A DNA stretch of 27,210 bases from a virus, in the IMG/VR virus record IMGVR_UViG_3300049737_000276, positions 1 to 27,210 of that record; one strand, written 5' to 3'. Of this stretch, positions 15,698 through 27,210 are shown piece by piece. A model generated the notes under the pieces. It did not search any database and was not told where the DNA came from. It saw only the letters and a program-made list of their open reading frames with translations. The position numbers were made by a program, and so were the translations under genes. Numbering within the stretch: position 1 is the stretch's first letter; each line of letters starts with the position of its first letter.

Positions 15698-16449
15698 TGG
15701 CAAAGAAATTTATATACGATTCAGCAGGAACATATAGCTCGACACTAACCGATGGCACAGTATCAGGAAGTACTTTTAGCGTGTCAACATCAATGACTAA
15801 CGAGATATTTGCGAACGATCAAAACATATCTAACGCTATAACATCGTACAATGTAGACGATGCAATACGCTTTGGATTTTCTTCTGCGCAAACTATCGAT
15901 ACAGTTGCATTGTATTTTAAAGGTGCAAGTTCAGGAAGGCTTGATATATTTCCTGATGGTGGTACTGCAACAAGCCTCGGTTCAACCGCAGGTAACGATG
16001 CATCGCTTGGTGCAGGTTGGAATATTATAGATATCACAGAAGCAAGTAATGATAATTGGTTCTTGGTAGCAACTGTCGCTGAAGTTACAAGTCTGTCTGA
16101 AGTAATATTAGGTAAGACCTTGACATTCCCATTCAATCCTAATTTAAACAGCAAAGAATCTAAGCAGTTCGGTGTTGATGTAGTAGAATCCTATGGTGGT
16201 AACGAATACGCAAACAAAAGACACGATGGTAAGCGTATGTGGGAGATATCCTTCAGCAATCTAACAGAGACCGATAAAACAAACTTTGAATCTATGCGAG
16301 ATGCAATCAGTACAAACTTCCTGAAGTTCTTATATTATGATGATAGTAGCTATCATTGGGTAAGAGCATTAAGTGGTAGCTTTGAGTTTACTGAGGTTGC
16401 ATACCAGGCATATAACATGAACGTTAAAATGATAGAGCAATTAGCATAA
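15697..16449 (+). CDS. Tail tip protein, paralogue 1 (fibre-adjacent)
   Basis: 250 aa, TAATG-coupled to the gene before. Residues about 40-140 look like a jelly-roll (discoidin-like) beta domain ('DAIRFGFSSAQTIDTVALYFKG' ... 'GWNIIDITEASNDNWFLVAT'). The C-terminal about 110 residues include 'SEVILGKTLTFPFNPN', 'VVESYGGNEYANKRHDGKRMWEISF' and 'ALSGSFEFTEVAYQAYNMNVKMIEQ', a beta domain shared with the gene at 19397. It probably mounts the fibre encoded by the next gene on the tail tip. TAATG coupling to the fibre gene supports this. The exact role is inferred. Confidence 0.6.
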   Translation: MAKKFIYDSAGTYSSTLTDGTVSGSTFSVSTSMTNEIFANDQNISNAITSYNVDDAIRFGFSSAQTIDTVALYFKGASSGRLDIFPDGGTATSLGSTAGNDASLGAGWNIIDITEASNDNWFLVATVAEVTSLSEVILGKTLTFPFNPNLNSKESKQFGVDVVESYGGNEYANKRHDGKRMWEISFSNLTETDKTNFESMRDAISTNFLKFLYYDDSSYHWVRALSGSFEFTEVAYQAYNMNVKMIEQLA

Positions 16450-19400
16450 TGTCAGCAAATACTTCACTTACAGATACTGCAATCAGTGCAGGTTATACAC
16501 AACTTCTTCATATAGGAGACACAGATGGTGTACACGCATCCACAAAGCGTGTAGTGTTTGATGGAGATGGTACTACAACAGCGTTAGAGATTAGCGGAGC
16601 AACTGTAGGAGCTAAGTCAGGAACATCATTACTCCAAGGTGGAGTCGCTATTACTTCAACCGCTGCAGAGCTAAATATACTAACAGGAGTAACTAGCACA
16701 AATGCAGAGCTAAATATACTGGATGGCGTAACAAGTACGACAGCCGAACTTAATATCCTTGATGGAGTTACATCGACAACCGCAGAACTTAACATACTAG
16801 ATGGAGTTACGTCTACTGCTGTAGAGCTTAACATATTAGACGGAGCTACACTATCAGTTACAGAGCTTAATGTACTCGATGGTATCACTGCAAATACAAG
16901 CGAACTTAATCAGCTTGATGGAATAACAGTAGTGTCTACGATAGGATCTCAAGTATTAACCAATAAGACTATTGATGCGGACAACAATACTATTAGCAAC
17001 CTAGCGCATGGCAGTGAGGTCGATAGCCCTTCATCAGGAGTTCATGGGGTAACAGGAAGTATTGTTGGAACATCGGATTCACAAACACTTACAAATAAAA
17101 CTTTAACTACACCAATAATCGCTGAAATAGATAATTCTAGTACAATTACCTTAGATGCAGGAACAGATATCGTACTAGATGCTGATGGTGGCGATGTATT
17201 CTTTAAAGATGCAGGTACTACTTATGGGTCTGCAACCAATACTTCAGGTAATTTAATTTTAAAATCAGGCACTACTACAGCAATGACATTCTCTGGTGCT
17301 GATGTAACTATAGCAGGAGATGCGATAGTATCAGGCAGTGATTTAACGTCAGGTAGTTTTAGTTCAGGTTTCGCAGGATCAGGATGGAAGCTCAGTAACA
17401 CTGCTGACCTAGAAGTATCTTCCGCAACTATCAGAGGTACGCTGTCAGTTTTTGAACTTTTAATACAGCAATTACGAGCAACTAATGGTGCAGTGTTCAT
17501 TACTTCAGCAGCGAAAGTAGAAAGTGTGAGTGGATTAAGTGCTTCGGATGATGACGGAACAATAACATTTGAAGATGCATCAGGTAACAGTATATGTCCG
17601 TTTGCTGATGGTGATATTATTATGATGCAAAGAGTAAATCCTGGTGCTTTGGTTGCTCCTAGTGCTGCAGGTGATGCGACTAATATCATTAAGAAGTTGG
17701 TTTATGAAGTAACAGCAGTTTCAAATAACACAGTAACAGTAACCAATGCAGGGTTTAATAATACTACTTCACCATCCGTAGGCGATGAGTTTGTAAGAAT
17801 AGGAAATAATGGCGATACTTCTAATCGAGATGGAATAATCTATCTAACATCTGATGATAGCAATGCTCCGTTCATAGATATCAAGTCAAGTGTCAATTCA
17901 TATTCTGAGTGGACAACATCTATGCCCAAGGTCAGACTTGGTAAGCTAAGTGGTATTACTGACAGTGATATTAATGGTGGTTCAGAACTTTCAGGATTCG
18001 GTCTATATAGTGATAATATATATCTAAAAGGTGAGATTGTAGCAACATCAGGCAAGATTGGTGGTATCAATTTAACATCTAGTAAGATACACACAGGGAC
18101 AGGAGCTCATAACAATTCTAATACAGGGTTCTACATAGATAGTAGTTCTAATTTTTCTTTAGGCGATAAATTATCGTGGAATGGAACTACCTTAAGTGTT
18201 AATGGTAATATTACAGTAGCAAATGCTTCATCTGTTAGAAGTGATTTAAATGTATCTAATGGTGCTACTGCTAATAGCTCTGATGCTGATTTAAAAAGCA
18301 GAGCTAACCACACAGGAACTCAAGGCTTAAGTAGCTTAGATAGCACCATTATATCTGGTGGTAAGATTATTACAGGATTGCTTACTGCAGACAATATACA
18401 AGCAGGAACTTTAAATGCTTCAGTAGTATCGGTAACTAATCTAAACGCATCGAGCGTAAGTGCAGGAACTATGTCTGCTGAAAGAATTTTACTTGGAGGA
18501 CAAGACCTCAATACATTTATTGGCACAACGATTTTTGGCGATGGTTCAGATGGCTCTGCAACAATAAGTAGTAATTCTACAATCACTGAAGATAAATATT
18601 TTACAAACCTTACAATTAACTCTGGAATCACGCTTGATGCTCAAGGGTTTAGAATATTTGTTTCTGGCACATTAACTTTAAATACTAATGCTAAAATTAC
18701 AAACAATGGTGGCGCAGGTGGTAATGGCGGTGTTGAAGATGGTGGCTCAAGGGGAGCAAAGGCATCTGAGGGAACTTTACGAGGTGGTGCGCTTGGTGGT
18801 CTTGGTGGAAGTAGCGACTTTAATGGTGGAACTGGCGGTAGTGCTGATCCTTGTATAAACTCTAATAGTGGTTCAGCAGGCGGTGCAGGTCAAACTTTAT
18901 CTGGAGGTACATCAGCAGGTAGTGGTGGTACAGCAGGTGGTGCGACTGTTAAAAAGACAAACTTTGCACATACCGATCCAAGCGTATTATTCACTATGCG
19001 TGATTTGTATGGAGTTGATGACACACCAAAAACAATCAGACCTTCTTGCGCAGGTGGAGGCGGTGGCGGTGGCGGTGGTAAAGCTACTGAAGGTCATGGC
19101 GGAGGCGGTGGTGGAGGCGGAGGTGGCTTCGTTGTCGTAGGTGCAAAGACAATCACACTAAATAGTGGCGCAAAGTTTGAAGCTAAAGGCGGTGCAGGTG
19201 GTAATGGATATACAGGTTCTGGTGCAGATGGAGATGGTGGTGGCGGTGGTGGTGGCAATGGCGGTGGTGTTATAATCGTATCGACTACTAGTGTTTCTTC
19301 AAGTTATGTAGATGTAACAGGTGGCGCAGGTGGAAGCTCAACAGGAGGCACTAATGGAACAGCAGGCTCAAGTGGTACGTTTATTATGCGCCAGATATGA
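16449..19400 (+). CDS. Large tail fibre/adhesin with ELNILDG repeats and glycine-rich tip
   Basis: 983 aa. After an N-terminal attachment part, residues 73-160 hold seven 13-residue repeats of the AELNILDGVTSTT type, followed by 'GSQVLTNKTI' and 'DSQTLTNKTL' linkers, beta-helical 'GTDIVLDADGGDVFFKDAGTTYGS' segments, and 'SGKIGGINLTSSKIHTGTG', a motif of phage fibre shafts. From about residue 753 the sequence becomes glycine-rich with runs of nine and ten glycines separated by non-glycine loops, ending GTFIMRQI. Such glycine-rich ends resemble polyglycine-II adhesin tips. The protein is probably the main receptor-binding fibre. It is flanked by two paralogous tail proteins and coupled to both by 1- and 4-base overlaps. 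Confidence 0.8.
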   Translation: MSANTSLTDTAISAGYTQLLHIGDTDGVHASTKRVVFDGDGTTTALEISGATVGAKSGTSLLQGGVAITSTAAELNILTGVTSTNAELNILDGVTSTTAELNILDGVTSTTAELNILDGVTSTAVELNILDGATLSVTELNVLDGITANTSELNQLDGITVVSTIGSQVLTNKTIDADNNTISNLAHGSEVDSPSSGVHGVTGSIVGTSDSQTLTNKTLTTPIIAEIDNSSTITLDAGTDIVLDADGGDVFFKDAGTTYGSATNTSGNLILKSGTTTAMTFSGADVTIAGDAIVSGSDLTSGSFSSGFAGSGWKLSNTADLEVSSATIRGTLSVFELLIQQLRATNGAVFITSAAKVESVSGLSASDDDGTITFEDASGNSICPFADGDIIMMQRVNPGALVAPSAAGDATNIIKKLVYEVTAVSNNTVTVTNAGFNNTTSPSVGDEFVRIGNNGDTSNRDGIIYLTSDDSNAPFIDIKSSVNSYSEWTTSMPKVRLGKLSGITDSDINGGSELSGFGLYSDNIYLKGEIVATSGKIGGINLTSSKIHTGTGAHNNSNTGFYIDSSSNFSLGDKLSWNGTTLSVNGNITVANASSVRSDLNVSNGATANSSDADLKSRANHTGTQGLSSLDSTIISGGKIITGLLTADNIQAGTLNASVVSVTNLNASSVSAGTMSAERILLGGQDLNTFIGTTIFGDGSDGSATISSNSTITEDKYFTNLTINSGITLDAQGFRIFVSGTLTLNTNAKITNNGGAGGNGGVEDGGSRGAKASEGTLRGGALGGLGGSSDFNGGTGGSADPCINSNSGSAGGAGQTLSGGTSAGSGGTAGGATVKKTNFAHTDPSVLFTMRDLYGVDDTPKTIRPSCAGGGGGGGGGKATEGHGGGGGGGGGGFVVVGAKTITLNSGAKFEAKGGAGGNGYTGSGADGDGGGGGGGNGGGVIIVSTTSVSSSYVDVTGGAGGSSTGGTNGTAGSSGTFIMRQI
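16665..16928 (+). repeat. Seven coding tandem repeats of 13 codons (xELNxLDGxTxxx)
   Basis: Seven consecutive units start at codons 73, 86, 99, 112, 125, 138 and 151 of the fibre gene. The core ELNILDG is nearly constant, but its codons differ between units (for example GAGCTAAATATACTA, GAACTTAATATCCTT, GAGCTTAACATATTA), so the units are old and maintained at protein level. The last two units are more diverged (TELNVLDG, SELNQLDG). Confidence 0.9.
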
Positions 19401-20365
19401 TTCTATATACAGATACTATAGATCTAAATCCACCCACAGAAGGATTTATTAATTCATCGGTTACAATAGACTTTGGAGACAACACAACTTTATTTTCACT
19501 AGAAGCACGCAAGTTTGGTAGTATTGCTACTTCAGCATTTCAAGCAGACTATACCACAAAAACACCAAGCGTTCTATATGATTATAAAGACACGCTACAA
19601 ACAGACTTTACAAGTCTAAAAACATTTGAGACTTCGGCAAGTGAGACATTTTATACATCAAACAATAAACTATTTAAGACTGCGGATACAGGTACTGACA
19701 TTGGACTTCGCTACGAGTTTACTAATACATCTACATTCGATTTCATTGCATTTTATGCTCCTACTGTCAATACTGCTGCAACTGTAAAAGTATTCGCTAC
19801 GGATAAGAATGTAGTATTCCTGACATCTGCAAGTAAAACATTTCTTACTAGCAATGGCAATATCTTCTTAACCGCAGACAACCCAAATGATAGTTTAGGT
19901 CTTATAAAAGAAAGCACAATATCATCATCAGGATGGACAATAATAGACTTAAGCTCTAGCCCTGTAACCACAGATATTGTACTGTTGCAGTTATCAGGTA
20001 GTTTTGATGTGGAGCTTAGTGAAATCTTTATGGGTGAGCGTTATGAGCTACCTAGAAACTTTGATATCGGAATTAGAACTGGAGCCAAACCCAGGACAAG
20101 CGTACTTGAAAGTTATAGTGGGTTTGAATATGCAAACAAAGAAAATGACGATGAAGAGTTCTATCAGTATCAATTCAGCTTGGCTAGTGAAACTGTAAAA
20201 GACTCTATAGAGAATATTATTAGTCAAGGAAAGAATCAACGTATACTTATTGAAGATGGTTCAGAATATCGATACGCATTCTCATCAGATAATCCATTTG
20301 TAGCAACTGAGGTTGCATCAGGATTATATGATATACAGCTAAACTTGACTAACGATAGAGTCTAA
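19397..20365 (+). CDS. Tail tip protein, paralogue 2 (fibre-adjacent)
   Basis: 322 aa, overlapping the fibre gene by 4 bases (ATGA). The C-terminal about 115 residues ('EIFMGERYELPRNFDIGI', 'SVLESYSGFEYANKENDDEEFYQYQFSL', 'FVATEVASGLYDIQLNLTND') align by eye with the C-terminus of the protein at 15697, including the ESY.G.EYANK block. The middle holds a duplicated segment: residues 80-104 and 144-169 both read SAS.TF.TSN...F.TAD......GL, each followed by a beta domain. It may form part of the fibre attachment or tip ring. Its 3' end overlaps the convergent integrase gene by 27 bases. Confidence 0.6.
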   Translation: MILYTDTIDLNPPTEGFINSSVTIDFGDNTTLFSLEARKFGSIATSAFQADYTTKTPSVLYDYKDTLQTDFTSLKTFETSASETFYTSNNKLFKTADTGTDIGLRYEFTNTSTFDFIAFYAPTVNTAATVKVFATDKNVVFLTSASKTFLTSNGNIFLTADNPNDSLGLIKESTISSSGWTIIDLSSSPVTTDIVLLQLSGSFDVELSEIFMGERYELPRNFDIGIRTGAKPRTSVLESYSGFEYANKENDDEEFYQYQFSLASETVKDSIENIISQGKNQRILIEDGSEYRYAFSSDNPFVATEVASGLYDIQLNLTNDRV

Positions 20366-21340
20366 GTGCGTAGCTACAGATTCATACAGTTCACGCTTTT
20401 CTTCATTTAAAAGATCTACATAATACTTTACAGTAATATCTACGCTTGTATGGTCTAAGAACTTGGACACATGAAATATTGAAGCCCCTTGACGTAATAA
20501 TATTGCTCCAGAAGCTTTTCTAAGGTCGTGTGCTGTAAATTGTATGTCAGTCTCATCTCTTAGAGTTTCAAATCTATTCCTGACGTACGAATCAGTGTAA
20601 GGTATAGGAGCTTCCCTGTCCATCCAATTATACAATATATCCATAGCAGATTGCGATACACTTGCCCAAGACTTTCTATTACCCTTGCGTGTCATTGAGA
20701 TGCGATTGTTCATAAAGTCTACATCGCTCCAAGTAAAGTTCTTTTGTAATGGTTCAGATATTCTTGCGCCTGTTAATAGATAAAATCGTACAAGATTTTT
20801 TGTATCCCCTGTGGCTGTATTTATTAGAGTCTTGATATCATCATCAGACAATACATTGATTTTCTTCTTAGCGATTTTATAATAGCTTATTATAGGTGCA
20901 GATTGAATCTTTTTACGGCTGATTGCCCAAGAAAATGCACTCTTTATTGCCCTAAGATCACCATTGACTCCATTTGCTTTTCGATGATTGTTCCTATCTT
21001 TATACAACTCAATATCTATGTTCTCAACTTTAATAGTACTAGAGAAACATTTTATAAGATTACATAAAGAAGTACAATATCTTTTATATGTATGTTCACT
21101 TCTATTCTTAATAATGAACGCAAGAAACTCATCTTTAAGTTCCTGTAAAGTATAGTTATTGTTGAATTTACGAGGAATCTCGATTTGCAATTTGTTCGCA
21201 TCTATAATACTGTTGACACGATCAAAGTAACTTTTTGCCCTAGACTTTCCAGTTATTACTCGCTTTACCTGTTTACCTAAGTCAGGATCTTGGTAGGTAA
21301 TGCGGTATTTATCGTTGTGTAATTTTATAATTTTAGACAT
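20339..21340 (-). CDS. int: Tyrosine-type site-specific integrase
   Basis: 333 aa. The C-terminal catalytic domain has all expected residues: R193 (TGARISEPL), K219 (TRKGNRK), H271 and R274 (AHDLRKASG), H297 (FLDHTSVD) and the nucleophile Y306 (KYYVDL, nine residues after H297, as in XerD). Residues about 60-150 form the SAM-like core-binding domain ('TLQELKDEFLAFIIKNRSEHTYKRY'), and the first 55 residues form an arm-binding-type domain. It integrates and excises the phage by recombination between attP and attB. The start ATG (21338-21340 complement) has a GGAGAG site upstream. Convergent overlap with the tail gene at 19397 is unusual. No attP core is identifiable without the host sequence. 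Confidence 0.93.
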   Translation of the reverse strand: MSKIIKLHNDKYRITYQDPDLGKQVKRVITGKSRAKSYFDRVNSIIDANKLQIEIPRKFNNNYTLQELKDEFLAFIIKNRSEHTYKRYCTSLCNLIKCFSSTIKVENIDIELYKDRNNHRKANGVNGDLRAIKSAFSWAISRKKIQSAPIISYYKIAKKKINVLSDDDIKTLINTATGDTKNLVRFYLLTGARISEPLQKNFTWSDVDFMNNRISMTRKGNRKSWASVSQSAMDILYNWMDREAPIPYTDSYVRNRFETLRDETDIQFTAHDLRKASGAILLRQGASIFHVSKFLDHTSVDITVKYYVDLLNEEKRELYESVATHLDSIVSQV

Positions 21341-21439: not shown

Positions 21440-21634
21440 TTGAACCATTTAGAGAGAATAAAACAAAAACTAAAAGATGAAGAGCGCAGCCAAAGATGGT
21501 TGGCTCGAAAGTTAAACAAAAGCCATAGTTTAATACATATGATGCTTAAGGGACAAAGAACTATGGATAGTCAAACTAGAATTGACATTGCGAATGTTCT
21601 TGGCGAAGAACCAGAAAGTTTGTATAATGTATAG
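21440..21634 (+). CDS. XRE-type helix-turn-helix regulator (64 aa)
   Basis: TTG start with AAAGGAAAGGA upstream. Almost the whole protein is one HTH domain: 'RSQRWLARKLNKSHSLIHMMLKGQRTMDSQTRIDIANVLG' with the recognition helix around SHSLIHMMLKG. There is no dimerisation or peptidase (LexA/CI-type) domain. It diverges from the integrase and precedes the early operon in the same direction, a position typical of Cro-like or small CI-like phage regulators controlling integration and early genes. A strong promoter overlaps its 3' end (21600-21628). Whether it represses or activates cannot be read from sequence. Confidence 0.8.
   Translation: MNHLERIKQKLKDEERSQRWLARKLNKSHSLIHMMLKGQRTMDSQTRIDIANVLGEEPESLYNV
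21600..21628 (+). promoter_or_regulatory. Early promoter (TTGGCG-17-TATAAT)
   Basis: TTGGCG (21600-21605, four of six consensus bases) and a perfect TATAAT (21623-21628), preceded directly by TG, are separated by 17 bases. Transcription would start near 21635, immediately after the HTH stop codon, and run through a structured leader into the early operon. This is the best sigma70-like promoter I see in the window. Confidence 0.6.
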
Positions 21635-23427: not shown

Positions 23428-23752
23428 GATGGAGAAAAAGTACCCAAACATGACCAAGAGGTACAAGGAAATCATGCAGTCGCAATACGAGACATTCTGT
23501 AGAAAGCAACACGACTATGGTAGCTCAAATATAAGTCTCGGCGGCAATATGAGACTTCAGGAAGATCGTAGGATGAGCTTGAAAGCGTTAGTTATTCGCA
23601 TGAATGATAAAGCAAACAGACTGATGACCATCTTATTTAAGAACGATGGTAAGAACGCAGTAAAAAACGAAACCTATGTCGATGCCTTTCAAGATGCAAG
23701 CGTGTATGGAATTATTGCACAGCTTGTTGATGAGGGAGTCTGGGGAAAATGA
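23402..23752 (+). CDS. Nucleotide-modification-associated domain protein (DUF1599/Nmad1-like)
   Basis: About 116 aa. The central motif 'CRKQHDYGSSNISLGG' followed by 'LVIRMNDKANRLMTIL' and 'ETYVDAFQDASVYGIIAQ' matches the DUF1599 pattern (K..DYG.....R...K..R........E...D...D...Y). These all-helical proteins resemble MazG-like nucleotide pyrophosphohydrolases, and the family is linked in comparative work to phage nucleotide modification. The acidic ED/D residues of the metal site are present in part. AGGAG lies six bases before ATG 23402; ATG 23399 is possible. It overlaps the next gene by 4 bases (ATGA). The substrate is unknown. Confidence 0.7.
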   Translation: MVEENYIAKMEKKYPNMTKRYKEIMQSQYETFCRKQHDYGSSNISLGGNMRLQEDRRMSLKALVIRMNDKANRLMTILFKNDGKNAVKNETYVDAFQDASVYGIIAQLVDEGVWGK

Positions 23753-24186
23753 ATTGGATCACACATATCAAAGTTGAAAACATCAAGCCAGAGCCTGGAA
23801 TTTACGCAATGTATGATACAGATAATCGTCTTATATATATAGGGCAATCCAAGGATGTTAATTATCGTGTTAGTAAGCACCCTAAAAGGAGCAAATACGC
23901 ATCAATTAAGGTTAGGCATATAAAGAGTTATGATGAGCGAATAAACCTCGAAGAGAGGCTTATTAGAAGGCTTAAACCTAAACTAAACAGACACCTGAAA
24001 GGGTCTAAGGTCTCATATGTAACCGCAAGGGTACGATTAGAGCTAAGAGAAGACCTTATTAAGGCGTTAAGGTTATATGCAACCATGCATAGCCTAAGTT
24101 TGGCTAATGCGTGTTATGAGATTATGCGACAAGAGTTAAGTCAAGAACTACAATTTGTAAAGGAGTATGAAAATGGCGAGGACTAA
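23749..24186 (+). CDS. GIY-YIG endonuclease with C-terminal ribbon-helix-helix-like domain
   Basis: 145 aa. Residues 16-85 are a compact GIY-YIG nuclease: G17-I-Y19, Y30-I-G32, the arginine R40 in 'NYRVSKH', the metal-binding glutamate E69 in 'LEERLIRRLKPKLN' and N80. Residues about 92-133 ('VTARVRLELREDLIKALRLYATMHSLSLANACYEIMRQEL') read as a strand plus two helices of the Arc/MetJ type, a DNA-binding ribbon-helix-helix. The fusion suggests a sequence-targeted nickase or nuclease, possibly a small homing-like enzyme or a phage regulator. It is fully within the early operon, overlapping the genes on both sides. Confidence 0.75.
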   Translation: MNWITHIKVENIKPEPGIYAMYDTDNRLIYIGQSKDVNYRVSKHPKRSKYASIKVRHIKSYDERINLEERLIRRLKPKLNRHLKGSKVSYVTARVRLELREDLIKALRLYATMHSLSLANACYEIMRQELSQELQFVKEYENGED

Positions 24187-24836: not shown

Positions 24837-25580
24837 TTGGATTATTTGGAATTTTTTAGTAGTCATTTGGAAGGAATTAAGCATTCCTATGGAGACGAGT
24901 ATGTTGCAAAGTGTCCTTTTCATGAAGATACCAAGCCTTCGTTTGGATTTAATGTCGAAAAAGGTGCGTGGATCTGCAGAACAGGGTGTGGACAGGGCGG
25001 TATTAAAGCATTTAAGGAAAAGATGGGCATTGTAGATACAAAAACTTACGAACCAAAGCCACGATTTGAAAAAATAGAGCAATTTAAAGCTCTGGATGAG
25101 AGTTGGGGTGTGCTTATGTTTGCATACATTGATTACTTTGAGTCAAAGTTTATGAAAGCTGCTGAGAAAAAATATGGATGGAAAAAGGATGTGATTCGTG
25201 AATGCATTGTAGGATTTGATGTTAAAAAGCAATGTTTAGTATTTGGTATTCACGATTTAAAAGGTAGATTGGTAAATATCAAATGGCATAAAAAACATGG
25301 AATTAAAGGTCATAACAGCAACACTATATATCCGATGTATAAATTTGGTAAATATGATCTTCGTAAGCCATTATTAATCGTAGAGGGAGAAAAAGACGTG
25401 ATAACAAGCATTTCACAAGGACATCAAGCAATATGTTTGACCGCAGGGTGTATGAGTAAAATTCCTGTGCAATATATTGATATATTACGCAAGTTTGAGG
25501 AGATTGGCGTAATGTATGATAACGATGAGGCAGGGGTCAATGGCTCAATTAGTCTCGTGGAGCAGTTGCGCAATGGGTAG
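24837..25580 (+). CDS. DNA primase: CHC2-type zinc finger plus TOPRIM domain (C-terminus truncated by frame change)
   Basis: 247 aa, TTG start with GAGGGAG upstream. The zinc finger is C26-P-x-H29 and C47...C51 ('KCPFHEDTKPSFGFN', 'WICRTGCGQGG'). The TOPRIM domain has E183 ('LLIVEGEKDV'), 'AICLTAGC' and the metal-binding D228-N-D230 ('GVMYDNDEAGVNGS'). It would make RNA primers for the phage replisome. The frame stops at TAG 25578-25580, about 20 residues after DxD, before the last TOPRIM strand is complete; that strand (RVKTVIHPNGSD) is encoded at the start of the next gene in the +1 frame. It is therefore a split primase-helicase or one made by frameshifting. Confidence 0.85.
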   Translation: MDYLEFFSSHLEGIKHSYGDEYVAKCPFHEDTKPSFGFNVEKGAWICRTGCGQGGIKAFKEKMGIVDTKTYEPKPRFEKIEQFKALDESWGVLMFAYIDYFESKFMKAAEKKYGWKKDVIRECIVGFDVKKQCLVFGIHDLKGRLVNIKWHKKHGIKGHNSNTIYPMYKFGKYDLRKPLLIVEGEKDVITSISQGHQAICLTAGCMSKIPVQYIDILRKFEEIGVMYDNDEAGVNGSISLVEQLRNG

Positions 25581-26679
25581 AGTGAAAACAGTCATACACC
25601 CTAATGGGTCAGATATTGGTCAAGATATAACAGACCACGCAGAGAATGGTGTACGCATTGACGATATACTTGGTCAGGGCAAGAAATCATTTGAGGTCAC
25701 CACTGCTGCGGATTTACTAAAGATAACACCGAAACCTGTGGACTGGATAGTAGAAGACCTAGTTGCTAAAGGTGTGAAGACAGTGATCGGTGGTATGACA
25801 GGTGCGAACAAGAGCTACTTTGTGATGGAGATGGCTGTACGGATAGCGTGTGGTATTGGAGAATTCATGGGTCATGCGATAAAGAAAGACTATAGCGTAT
25901 TGTATGTGAACCTGGAAATATCGAACGATGAAGTCAATCGTAGGATACAAAAGATTATATCGAATCTCCATGTAACGCATGAGGGACTCCAGAATTTACA
26001 CATCAATGTATTCGATAATGAGACATTCGATGATGTGTGGGAGAAGATAGGGAATACAGTAGAAAAGGTAAAGCCACAGCTACTTATCGTGGACAATCTA
26101 TATGCTAGTACGAATGTAAATCTATCGAGAAATGATGAGATTAAGAAGTTGTTGCGTAGGATTGATAATGTGGTAACTGAGAACGATATATCGTTGATAC
26201 TCGTTGCTCACTTTAATAAGAGCATGGGTGAGACTGAGTTAAGCCTAGAGCGTATGCAAGGTGCAAGTAGTTTGCAGAATTGGATTGAGTTTGGGATATT
26301 GCTTGGTAGAAGCTCGGTAAATACGGAGTATCGCTTGATGCGTATCGTGAAGAGTAGGATTAGCAACGCATCGCACCATCATTTTCTGCTGCAATGGTCG
26401 AATGATACGCATTTGTTTACCAAGAAAGGTATCGTTGAGAATCCTTCGGTTCACTTCTTGCCTGTAAACAAACTAGGTCAATATAAAGAGGTTCTGGATG
26501 AAATGGATGACAGATTTGATACATCAAGGTTCTTAAATGTGGTCGAAAATCAGTTCAATTTGACACGCAGGACAGGAGATCGATGGATTGCTGATTTACT
26601 TACAGCAGGGTTAATCAAGAAGGAAAAACAGGGATTATTCAAGAAAACAGACCTAGAAATTATCAAAGATGAATCGTAA
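25573..26679 (+). CDS. RepA-like replicative helicase (AAA_25/RecA-fold ATPase) carrying the end of the TOPRIM domain
   Basis: 368 aa from ATG 25573, which overlaps the primase stop by 8 bases and has GGAG ten bases upstream; an ATG at 25516 is open but encodes no domain-like sequence. The first 30 residues ('GRVKTVIHPNGSDIGQDITDHAENGVRIDDIL') read as the end of a TOPRIM domain. The ATPase follows: 'WIVEDLVAKGVKTVIGGMTGANKS' (Walker A, with N79 in place of the usual glycine), E115 in 'YVNLEIS', Walker B 'LLIVDNL' (D174), 'LILVAHFNKS' and a 'GASSLQNWIEF' sensor block. A winged-helix-like C-terminus ('LNVVENQFNLTRRTGDRWIADLL') ends the protein. It should unwind DNA at the fork with the primase. 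Confidence 0.85.
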   Translation: MGRVKTVIHPNGSDIGQDITDHAENGVRIDDILGQGKKSFEVTTAADLLKITPKPVDWIVEDLVAKGVKTVIGGMTGANKSYFVMEMAVRIACGIGEFMGHAIKKDYSVLYVNLEISNDEVNRRIQKIISNLHVTHEGLQNLHINVFDNETFDDVWEKIGNTVEKVKPQLLIVDNLYASTNVNLSRNDEIKKLLRRIDNVVTENDISLILVAHFNKSMGETELSLERMQGASSLQNWIEFGILLGRSSVNTEYRLMRIVKSRISNASHHHFLLQWSNDTHLFTKKGIVENPSVHFLPVNKLGQYKEVLDEMDDRFDTSRFLNVVENQFNLTRRTGDRWIADLLTAGLIKKEKQGLFKKTDLEIIKDES

Positions 26680-26688
26680 CACACCCCA

Positions 26689-26761
26689 TGTCGTAACTGT
26701 CGTAACTGTCGTACTTTACGACACGTACGACATTTTTTAGTAGTTTACGACAGATACGACA
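26689..26761. repeat. Heptamer array TGTCGTA/TACGACA (seven copies)
   Basis: Copies of TGTCGTA start at 26689, 26698 and 26707; copies of the complement TACGACA start at 26717, 26726, 26746 and 26755. Within each group the spacing is exactly 9 bases, and the last pair is 20 bases after the second. This follows the replication genes directly. Regularly spaced short repeats in both orientations resemble an iteron/origin cluster or repressor operator set. The central part also folds as a terminator. Confidence 0.85.
26698..26738 (+). terminator. Intrinsic terminator built from the heptamer repeats
   Basis: Outer stem TGTCGTA (26698-26704) with TACGACA (26726-26732), a 2x2 internal mismatch (AC against CG), inner stem TGTCGTA (26707-26713) with TACGACA (26717-26723) and a CTT loop, followed at once by six T (26733-26738). 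This is the shape of a rho-independent terminator for the replication operon. The gene after it would then need its own promoter or readthrough. Confidence 0.65.
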
Positions 26762-26780
26762 CTGTGTGTGTGTAGTCAAA

Positions 26781-27104
26781 GTGGAAAATAAAGAGAAAAC
26801 CGAAAAAACCTTTGAAGAGCTAATTGACCCTTCGTTTCAAGATATTATAGACCCTGTGTTTCATAATATTAGAGAAGATAGCCCATGCAAACACGCAGAT
26901 TCAGGGAAATGTCCATACGCTTACCAAAATGAACAGGATGTAGTCCATTGTAAGATGGCGATTACTTGGCACCCTGTAACTGCGGTCGATGAAATGACTA
27001 AGTGTTTTAAAGGAAAATATAATTATAACAGGGATAAACTTGCAGCTAGAAATAGATTGCGTAAGAAGTTTCCTGATTTAGAAGAAGATACCCTGTCGTT
27101 TTAA
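26781..27104 (+). CDS. Four-cysteine hypothetical protein after the heptamer array
   Basis: About 107 aa from GTG 26781; GTG 26766 in the same frame would add five residues, and neither has a clear ribosome site. The acidic N-terminus ('EKTFEELIDPSFQDIIDPVFHNI', with two near-identical 'DP.F..I' units) is followed by a cysteine cluster C36, C44, C57 and C75 in 'CKHADSGKCPYAYQNEQDVVHC' and 'KCFKGKYNYN', then a basic helix. The cysteines could bind zinc. I do not recognise the family. It is separated from the helicase by the array/terminator and converges with the HNH fragment on the other strand. Confidence 0.65.
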   Translation: MENKEKTEKTFEELIDPSFQDIIDPVFHNIREDSPCKHADSGKCPYAYQNEQDVVHCKMAITWHPVTAVDEMTKCFKGKYNYNRDKLAARNRLRKKFPDLEEDTLSF

Positions 27105-27117
27105 ATATTAGAGCTTA

Positions 27118-27210
27118 TTAGTGTCTTTCAGCGTGGCATCTTACACATAATACGATACATTTGCTCATTTCTTTTAAAATCGCAGCTTTAGAAAACATAT
27201 CACCGATCAT
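27118..27210 (-). CDS. HNH endonuclease, C-terminal fragment (runs off the window)
   Basis: On the - strand the frame is open from the window edge to a stop at 27118-27120, and the visible 30 residues end in 'ILKEMSKCIVLCVRCHAERH'. The 'KCIVLC..CH...H' ending is the classic last part of an HNH nuclease (second CxxC pair and final histidines of the beta-beta-alpha-metal fold). Phage HNH proteins near the right end are often linked to terminase and cos cleavage. The N-terminal catalytic histidine lies outside the window. Its stop is 13 bases from the stop of the convergent gene. Confidence 0.6.
   Translation of the reverse strand: MIGDMFSKAAILKEMSKCIVLCVRCHAERH

Follow-up and report, generated by a model that had tools for sequence, protein, structure and literature searches.

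A conserved seven-copy repeat array behind a RepA/DnaB-like helicase gene is a candidate replication origin in a group of marine temperate phages

What purpose is served by a compact set of seven heptamers lying between the replication genes of a marine phage and the next open reading frame (ORF)? The original prediction, made from the 27,210-nt stretch of phage DNA analysed here (the window), was that one element might act both as an iteron cluster (origin or operator) and as a transcription terminator, with a bound protein controlling either process. We compared the array with those of relatives, with the DNA behind related helicase genes in distant phages, and with described replication systems.

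The window covers 27.2 kb of a phage for which a 99.9% identical relative (G001) is circularly closed, with a 123-bp end repeat and a length of 35,001 bp; a second relative (G002) is likewise closed at 34,342 bp. The phage has major capsid-like, terminase, portal, and tail genes of its own, and the group's terminase shares no more than 34% identity with any terminase in the phage collection. A large tail-fibre-like ORF (16449-19400) has tandem AELNILDGVTST protein repeats at its start and a Gly-rich tract at its end. Replication genes form a plus-strand operon, comprising a Cro-like helix-turn-helix (HTH) protein (21440), a Gp2.5-like SSB (22051), an Hjc-like protein, a GIY-YIG fusion, a PD-(D/E)XK nuclease, a primase, and a helicase. 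The fusion (23749-24186) joins a GIY-YIG endonuclease domain to a ribbon-helix-helix (RHH)-like tail and, at 60-81% identity in close relatives, diverges faster than its neighbours. Downstream of the helicase come the array, a Cys-rich ORF on the plus strand, a minus-strand cassette that differs between relatives, and then the terminase genes. In the phage of the window the cassette slot is occupied by an HNH-like ORF, and in L008, L009, and G002 by a DNA C5-methyltransferase-like ORF (cassette coordinates: L005 7603-8001; L008 7587-8594; L009 7667-8770; G002 offset 413-1549). The genes and the domain closest to the array are as follows.

24837..25580, plus strand: DnaG-type primase (zinc ribbon and Toprim), with an 8-nt overlap with the helicase start
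25573..26679, plus strand: AAA_25 / RepA-DnaB-like helicase, likely initiator (Pfam AAA_25 3e-24, DnaB_C 4e-4; PHROG primase/helicase families)
26452..26676, plus strand: predicted winged helix at the helicase C-terminus, which probably reads the iterons (AF2 pLDDT 64; weak HTH_28 match)
26781..27104, plus strand: conserved Cys-rich ORF of ~107 aa just after the array, 72-100% identical in relatives, with no Pfam or PHROG match

The helicase start was placed at the ATG at 25573 because two relatives (L007 and L008) carry an in-frame stop upstream. At this junction (25565-25620), the end of the primase ORF and the start of the helicase ORF overlap by 8 nt (ATGGGTAG), and the C-terminal Toprim motif (PNGSDIGQDITDH) is read in the helicase frame, in which L007 and L008 have their stop just upstream. 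Possible explanations are that an ancestral primase-helicase was split here or that a frameshift occurs; no slippery site was seen.

All seven heptamers of the original prediction, three TGTCGTA and four of its complement, were found where it had placed them. The array begins ~10 bp after the helicase stop, and its consecutive heptamers are 9, 9, 10, 9, 20, and 9 bp apart, so that five copies and two copies lie on either side of a 13-bp A+T-rich spacer. TGTCGTA occurs 11 times in the whole window against 2.2 expected, a count reached in 0 of 100 shuffles, and the four copies outside the array are scattered; in the 250 bp that follow the helicase gene, no 7-mer reached seven copies in any of 300 shuffles. 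A conserved inverted pair, CACAC...GTGTGTGTG, which the original prediction did not mention, flanks the array and makes 26679-26771 one large imperfect inverted repeat. The set is very likely an iteron array, with the following parts.

26679..26771, no strand: large imperfect inverted repeat around the array, 85% complementary; outer arms are CA/GT repeats, arms conserved
26689..26695, plus strand: iteron 1, TGTCGTA; core TGTCGT invariant in relatives
26698..26704, plus strand: iteron 2, TGTCGTA; core invariant in relatives
26707..26713, plus strand: iteron 3, TGTCGTA; core invariant in relatives
26717..26723, minus strand: iteron 4, read as TACGACA on the plus strand; core invariant in relatives
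26726..26732, minus strand: iteron 5 (TACGACA on the plus strand); position 7 variable (TGTCGTW)
26733..26745, no strand: A+T-rich spacer TTTTTTAGTAGTT separating the two iteron sets; contains the T-run of a possible terminator
26746..26752, minus strand: iteron 6 (TACGACA on the plus strand); core invariant in relatives
26755..26761, minus strand: iteron 7 (TACGACA on the plus strand); core invariant in relatives

The original prediction proposed looking for the same heptamer spacing in related phages, and this spacing proved invariant. Eight IMG/VR contigs, every one from the same marine phage group, carry the array, and all eight keep the seven TGTCGT cores and every spacing. These relatives were the only matches to the strict two-orientation pattern among 2.9 million contigs; broader DNA pattern scans returned, among the matches listed, mostly chance or coding repeats. 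The six distinct sequences differ at 12 of the 73 positions of the array and show no indels there; all 12 are among the 31 non-core positions, and the 42 core positions are unchanged (P about 8 × 10−6). Within the spacer, TAGTAGT is conserved among relatives and the T-run is not. Position 7 of the repeat is A or T across relatives, and in the most distant of them (L008) each of the seven copies has T at position 8, as expected if the preference of the reader protein had shifted. When GTDB genomes were searched for a prophage or host, neither the helicase alignment nor the terminase returned a relative, and a literature search returned no description of these arrays.

The best candidate for this reader is the helicase itself. 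Its last 75 residues are predicted to form a helix-strand-helix-helix-strand-strand arrangement (AF2, pLDDT about 70 in the helices), for which the top ranks of Foldseek and VIA-align were winged-helix DNA-binding domains, including BlaI (Z 8.5), an ORC winged helix (8.7), and the archaeal MCM C-terminus (7.8), although Z near 8 may mean a common arrangement only and the winged-helix model is of moderate confidence. The full-length model (mean pLDDT 45) was too poor for use. Based on the domain model, the helicase probably ends in a winged helix. The binders originally suggested, the RHH fusion at 23749 and the HTH protein at 21440, now appear less likely. Two relatives (G002 and G005) have almost the same array and a helicase 98-99% identical to that of the window, whereas their fusion is only 60-64% identical. 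The HTH protein is conserved (92-98% in relatives), but the predicted winged helix of the helicase remains the likelier array binder of the three.

A tblastn search of 50,697 phage records with the helicase returned homologues at about 20-28% identity, and the DNA after the gene was read in 20. The helicase gene is immediately followed by a significant repeat cluster in the Idiomarinaceae phage 1N2-2 (11 GGTACA), in Alteromonas phages XX1924 and PB15 (12-13 GGTTCA), and in phage ctKR88 (AGTACCA, with pairs 9 bp apart). Significant post-helicase clusters were also found in Paenibacillus Vegas, Faecalibacterium Aster, Flavonifractor Castelnaud, Bacillus BCJA1c, and Mycobacterium NoShow. Each of these distant clusters has its own repeat word, and several contain a TATATA-like palindrome, which is absent in the window. 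Among annotated gaps, a significant cluster was present in 9 of 14 post-helicase gaps (window included) vs. 0 of 25 others (Fisher 9 × 10−6), and among 250-bp windows in 8 of 20 post-helicase vs. 3 of 304 others (P 7 × 10−9), with the phages in these counts not all independent, XX1924 and PB15 being near relatives, and L309 left out for having too little downstream sequence. Later additions included three positives (Javan273, Javan17, and Javan249), two borderline cases (Javan85 and Javan377), and four phages without a cluster (BFK20, Widow, RLK, and EmiRose). Homologues with little C-terminal extension (MonChoix, Pureglobe5, HTVC021P, WO, and 38507) had no cluster; neither was one detectable after the long-C-terminus homologues MD02, ctuI7215, Polewnik, 82E32.3, PA-SR01, and BFK20, and the distant contig L330 had no four-copy 7-mer cluster. 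Profile comparison of the window's C-terminus with those of 1N2-2, XX1924, and PB15 was not significant.

Repeat word and helicase C-terminus could be compared more closely within a Gram-positive family, in which helicase cores are 56-89% identical and the last 70 residues only 19-40% identical where words differ. Streptococcus phages Javan17, 249, and 273 share both a recognition helix, SEKT(V/I)RRWI, and a repeat word, GGGACA; Javan161 has an equally close core, yet carries TEKTVRNHL and other repeats (cores of the compared Streptococcus phages are 83-89% identical). In Javan161 (L305 3719-3850), two long direct repeats (CCTGTAAAAAACAGAGAATTTTATGTTATTTTCC) follow the helicase, at the place where its near relatives have GGGACA words. 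Identity in the last 70 residues is 90% for the same-word pair XX1924/PB15 and drops to 53-59% for same-word Javan pairs, so the C-terminus is variable anyway. The match between helix and word is the stronger point, although few phages stand behind it. The comparable stretch in the window helicase is RRTGDRWIADLL.

Taken together, these observations make it likely that replication in this marine temperate phage group starts at the array, which the adjacent RepA/DnaB-like helicase would read. In the scheme we propose, the helicase would bind TGTCGTW words through its predicted C-terminal winged helix, and these words, being in two sets and in both orientations, would put helicase complexes on both sides of the short A+T-rich spacer. 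There the helicase may load itself, with the neighbouring DnaG-type primase beginning synthesis. The origin component of the original prediction is thus strengthened by the invariance of cores and spacing and by the same layout after distant helicases, from which we infer origin activity. Counting against this reading, besides the long-C-terminus homologues lacking a cluster and the non-significant profile comparison, are the lack of a clear A+T-rich melting region, with A+T around the array at the window mean and no broader A+T-rich region, and the position of the GC-skew minimum. A minimum at the array had been put forward as a check, but in closed genomes G001 and G002 cumulative skew reaches its maximum 56 bp before the array and its minimum 4.15 and 3.41 kb after it, respectively, where the minus-strand cassette ends. 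Because skew follows gene orientation in these phages, it does not locate an origin. Classical iteron plasmid origins have DnaA boxes next to their iterons; on reading 26680-26790, no TTATNCACA-like word was found.

The same repeats can also be read as an RNA structure. As originally described, the central copies (2-5) form a nested hairpin with a folding energy of −17.0 kcal/mol (z −4.6), directly followed by TTTTTT at 26733-26738, and the window and four near relatives combine iterons with both hairpin and T-run. The array might then be chiefly a transcription terminator, with the repeat words simply the two sides of nested stems, or one element with two jobs in which a bound iteron reader gates termination. 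However, an intrinsic terminator would keep a G+C-rich hairpin and an immediate U-run in relatives, and in the two most diverged ones the T-run has become TTTTG (L008) and TTTAG (L009). Pairing in the short hairpin is unchanged at 13 of 14 pairs because the cores are unchanged, and its one variable pair is broken in four of the six distinct sequences without compensatory change; a long alternative hairpin keeps 13 of 15 pairs with one compensatory pair, which sits at position 8, where L008 altered all copies together. A stem arises here because the copies are inverted, and the lack of both T-run conservation and compensatory change makes the constraint look like protein binding, which favours recognition as double-stranded DNA over RNA structure. 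Seven copies in fixed phase would also be superfluous for a terminator, a simple terminator scan did not list the array hairpin, a conserved plus-strand ORF lies directly downstream, and no Rfam covariance model matched near any gathering score across 26000-27210. We therefore regard a terminator as the main function as very improbable, and the combined element as improbable too. The iteron half of the dual claim stands on its invariant cores and spacing while the terminator half is weak: a terminator may function in the window's own strain, but it is not the feature that selection has preserved, and termination as a conserved second function is unlikely.

Protein binding is itself compatible with other roles, since conservation indicates binding and not its purpose. 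The array lies between two plus-strand genes, and could be an operator through which the conserved Cro-like HTH protein, the helicase, or the Cys-rich protein controls the downstream ORF or the replication operon. We consider this unlikely: no promoter-like site is listed at the array, the repeat word is absent from the gap upstream of the HTH gene itself, and distant clusters follow the helicase gene and are absent from other gaps. Repeat arrays elsewhere also act as integrase arm sites, packaging signals, or partition sites, and the phage has an integrase gene at 20339-21340 and terminase genes 4-5 kb downstream of the array. Yet the array adjoins neither, and the comparative association is with helicases, so that a role of this type seems extremely improbable. 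An origin read by the adjacent helicase remains the explanation we prefer.

Beyond this phage group, the evidence leans modestly towards a broad, undescribed class of phage origins, in which RepA/AAA_25-type helicases with a fused or adjacent primase would serve as self-loading initiators, their C-terminal winged helix and 3′ iteron word changing together, in phages of both Gram-positive and Gram-negative hosts. The proposed arrangement suggests that a RepA/DnaB-like helicase can read its own origin with no initiator or loader besides itself, unusual among helicases of this class. It also provides a sequence rule for finding origin and initiator in many temperate phages, namely directly 3′ of an AAA_25 helicase gene encoding a C-terminal HTH, and the natural swaps among near-identical Streptococcus phage helicases make the recognition code directly testable.

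Among known systems, the iterons of plasmid RSF1010 are read by a separate protein, RepC, and the alpha protein of P4 is a single fused protein of another helicase class. P4 alpha and its ori/crr resemble the present arrangement in pairing primase and helicase with a C-terminus that reads DNA at iterons, and differ in that primase and helicase are separate ORFs here and the iteron word is another. P4 alpha and its cognate ori are named in PMC6092414. The RSF1010 RepA-type hexameric helicases and GP46 of Lactococcus phage F13 belong to the same RepA/AAA_25 class as the window helicase (PMC8965321), but the related skunavirus gene in Lactococcus phage 38507 is, unlike that of the window, followed by no repeat cluster. 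By description only, the array can be likened to a short noncoding stretch in the replication module of Streptococcus thermophilus phage Sfi21, an origin-like element that acts as an origin in trans (PMC6356513).

The closest parallel is with the Rep-ori units of SaPIs and PICIs. The C-terminal domain of SaPI Rep helicases recognises iterons directly downstream of their own gene, and that of the SCCmec helicase Cch2 binds the region downstream of its gene (PMC7581432). The PICI unit, which drives plasmid replication, has an A+T-rich region downstream of rep with an iteron set on either side (PMC6092414). Shared features include an initiator helicase with a C-terminal DNA-reading domain, here predicted (PMC7581432, PMC6092414), two sets of short iterons lying directly behind the helicase gene, here ~10 bp after its stop, a primase adjacent to or fused with the helicase, and a word specific to each element. 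On the other hand, the window helicase is a RecA-fold RepA/DnaB-like AAA_25 protein, for which Pfam gives AAA_25 and a weak DnaB_C only, rather than one of the DUF927 or D5/Primase_Cterm types named for SaPIs; the primase is DnaG-type; the A+T-rich region is only a 13-bp spacer; and the array is carried by a phage that encodes capsid and terminase proteins of its own, not by a helper-dependent satellite. Because the helicase is of the RepA/DnaB class and the carrier a complete phage, we do not file the array as a SaPI/PICI member. The PICI organisation was described as shared by no other known bacterial replicon (PMC6092414), a statement that would be too narrow if the broad class outlined above is real. 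On present evidence, and by analogy, the array appears to work like a SaPI/PICI Rep-ori, but with a RepA/DnaB-type helicase.
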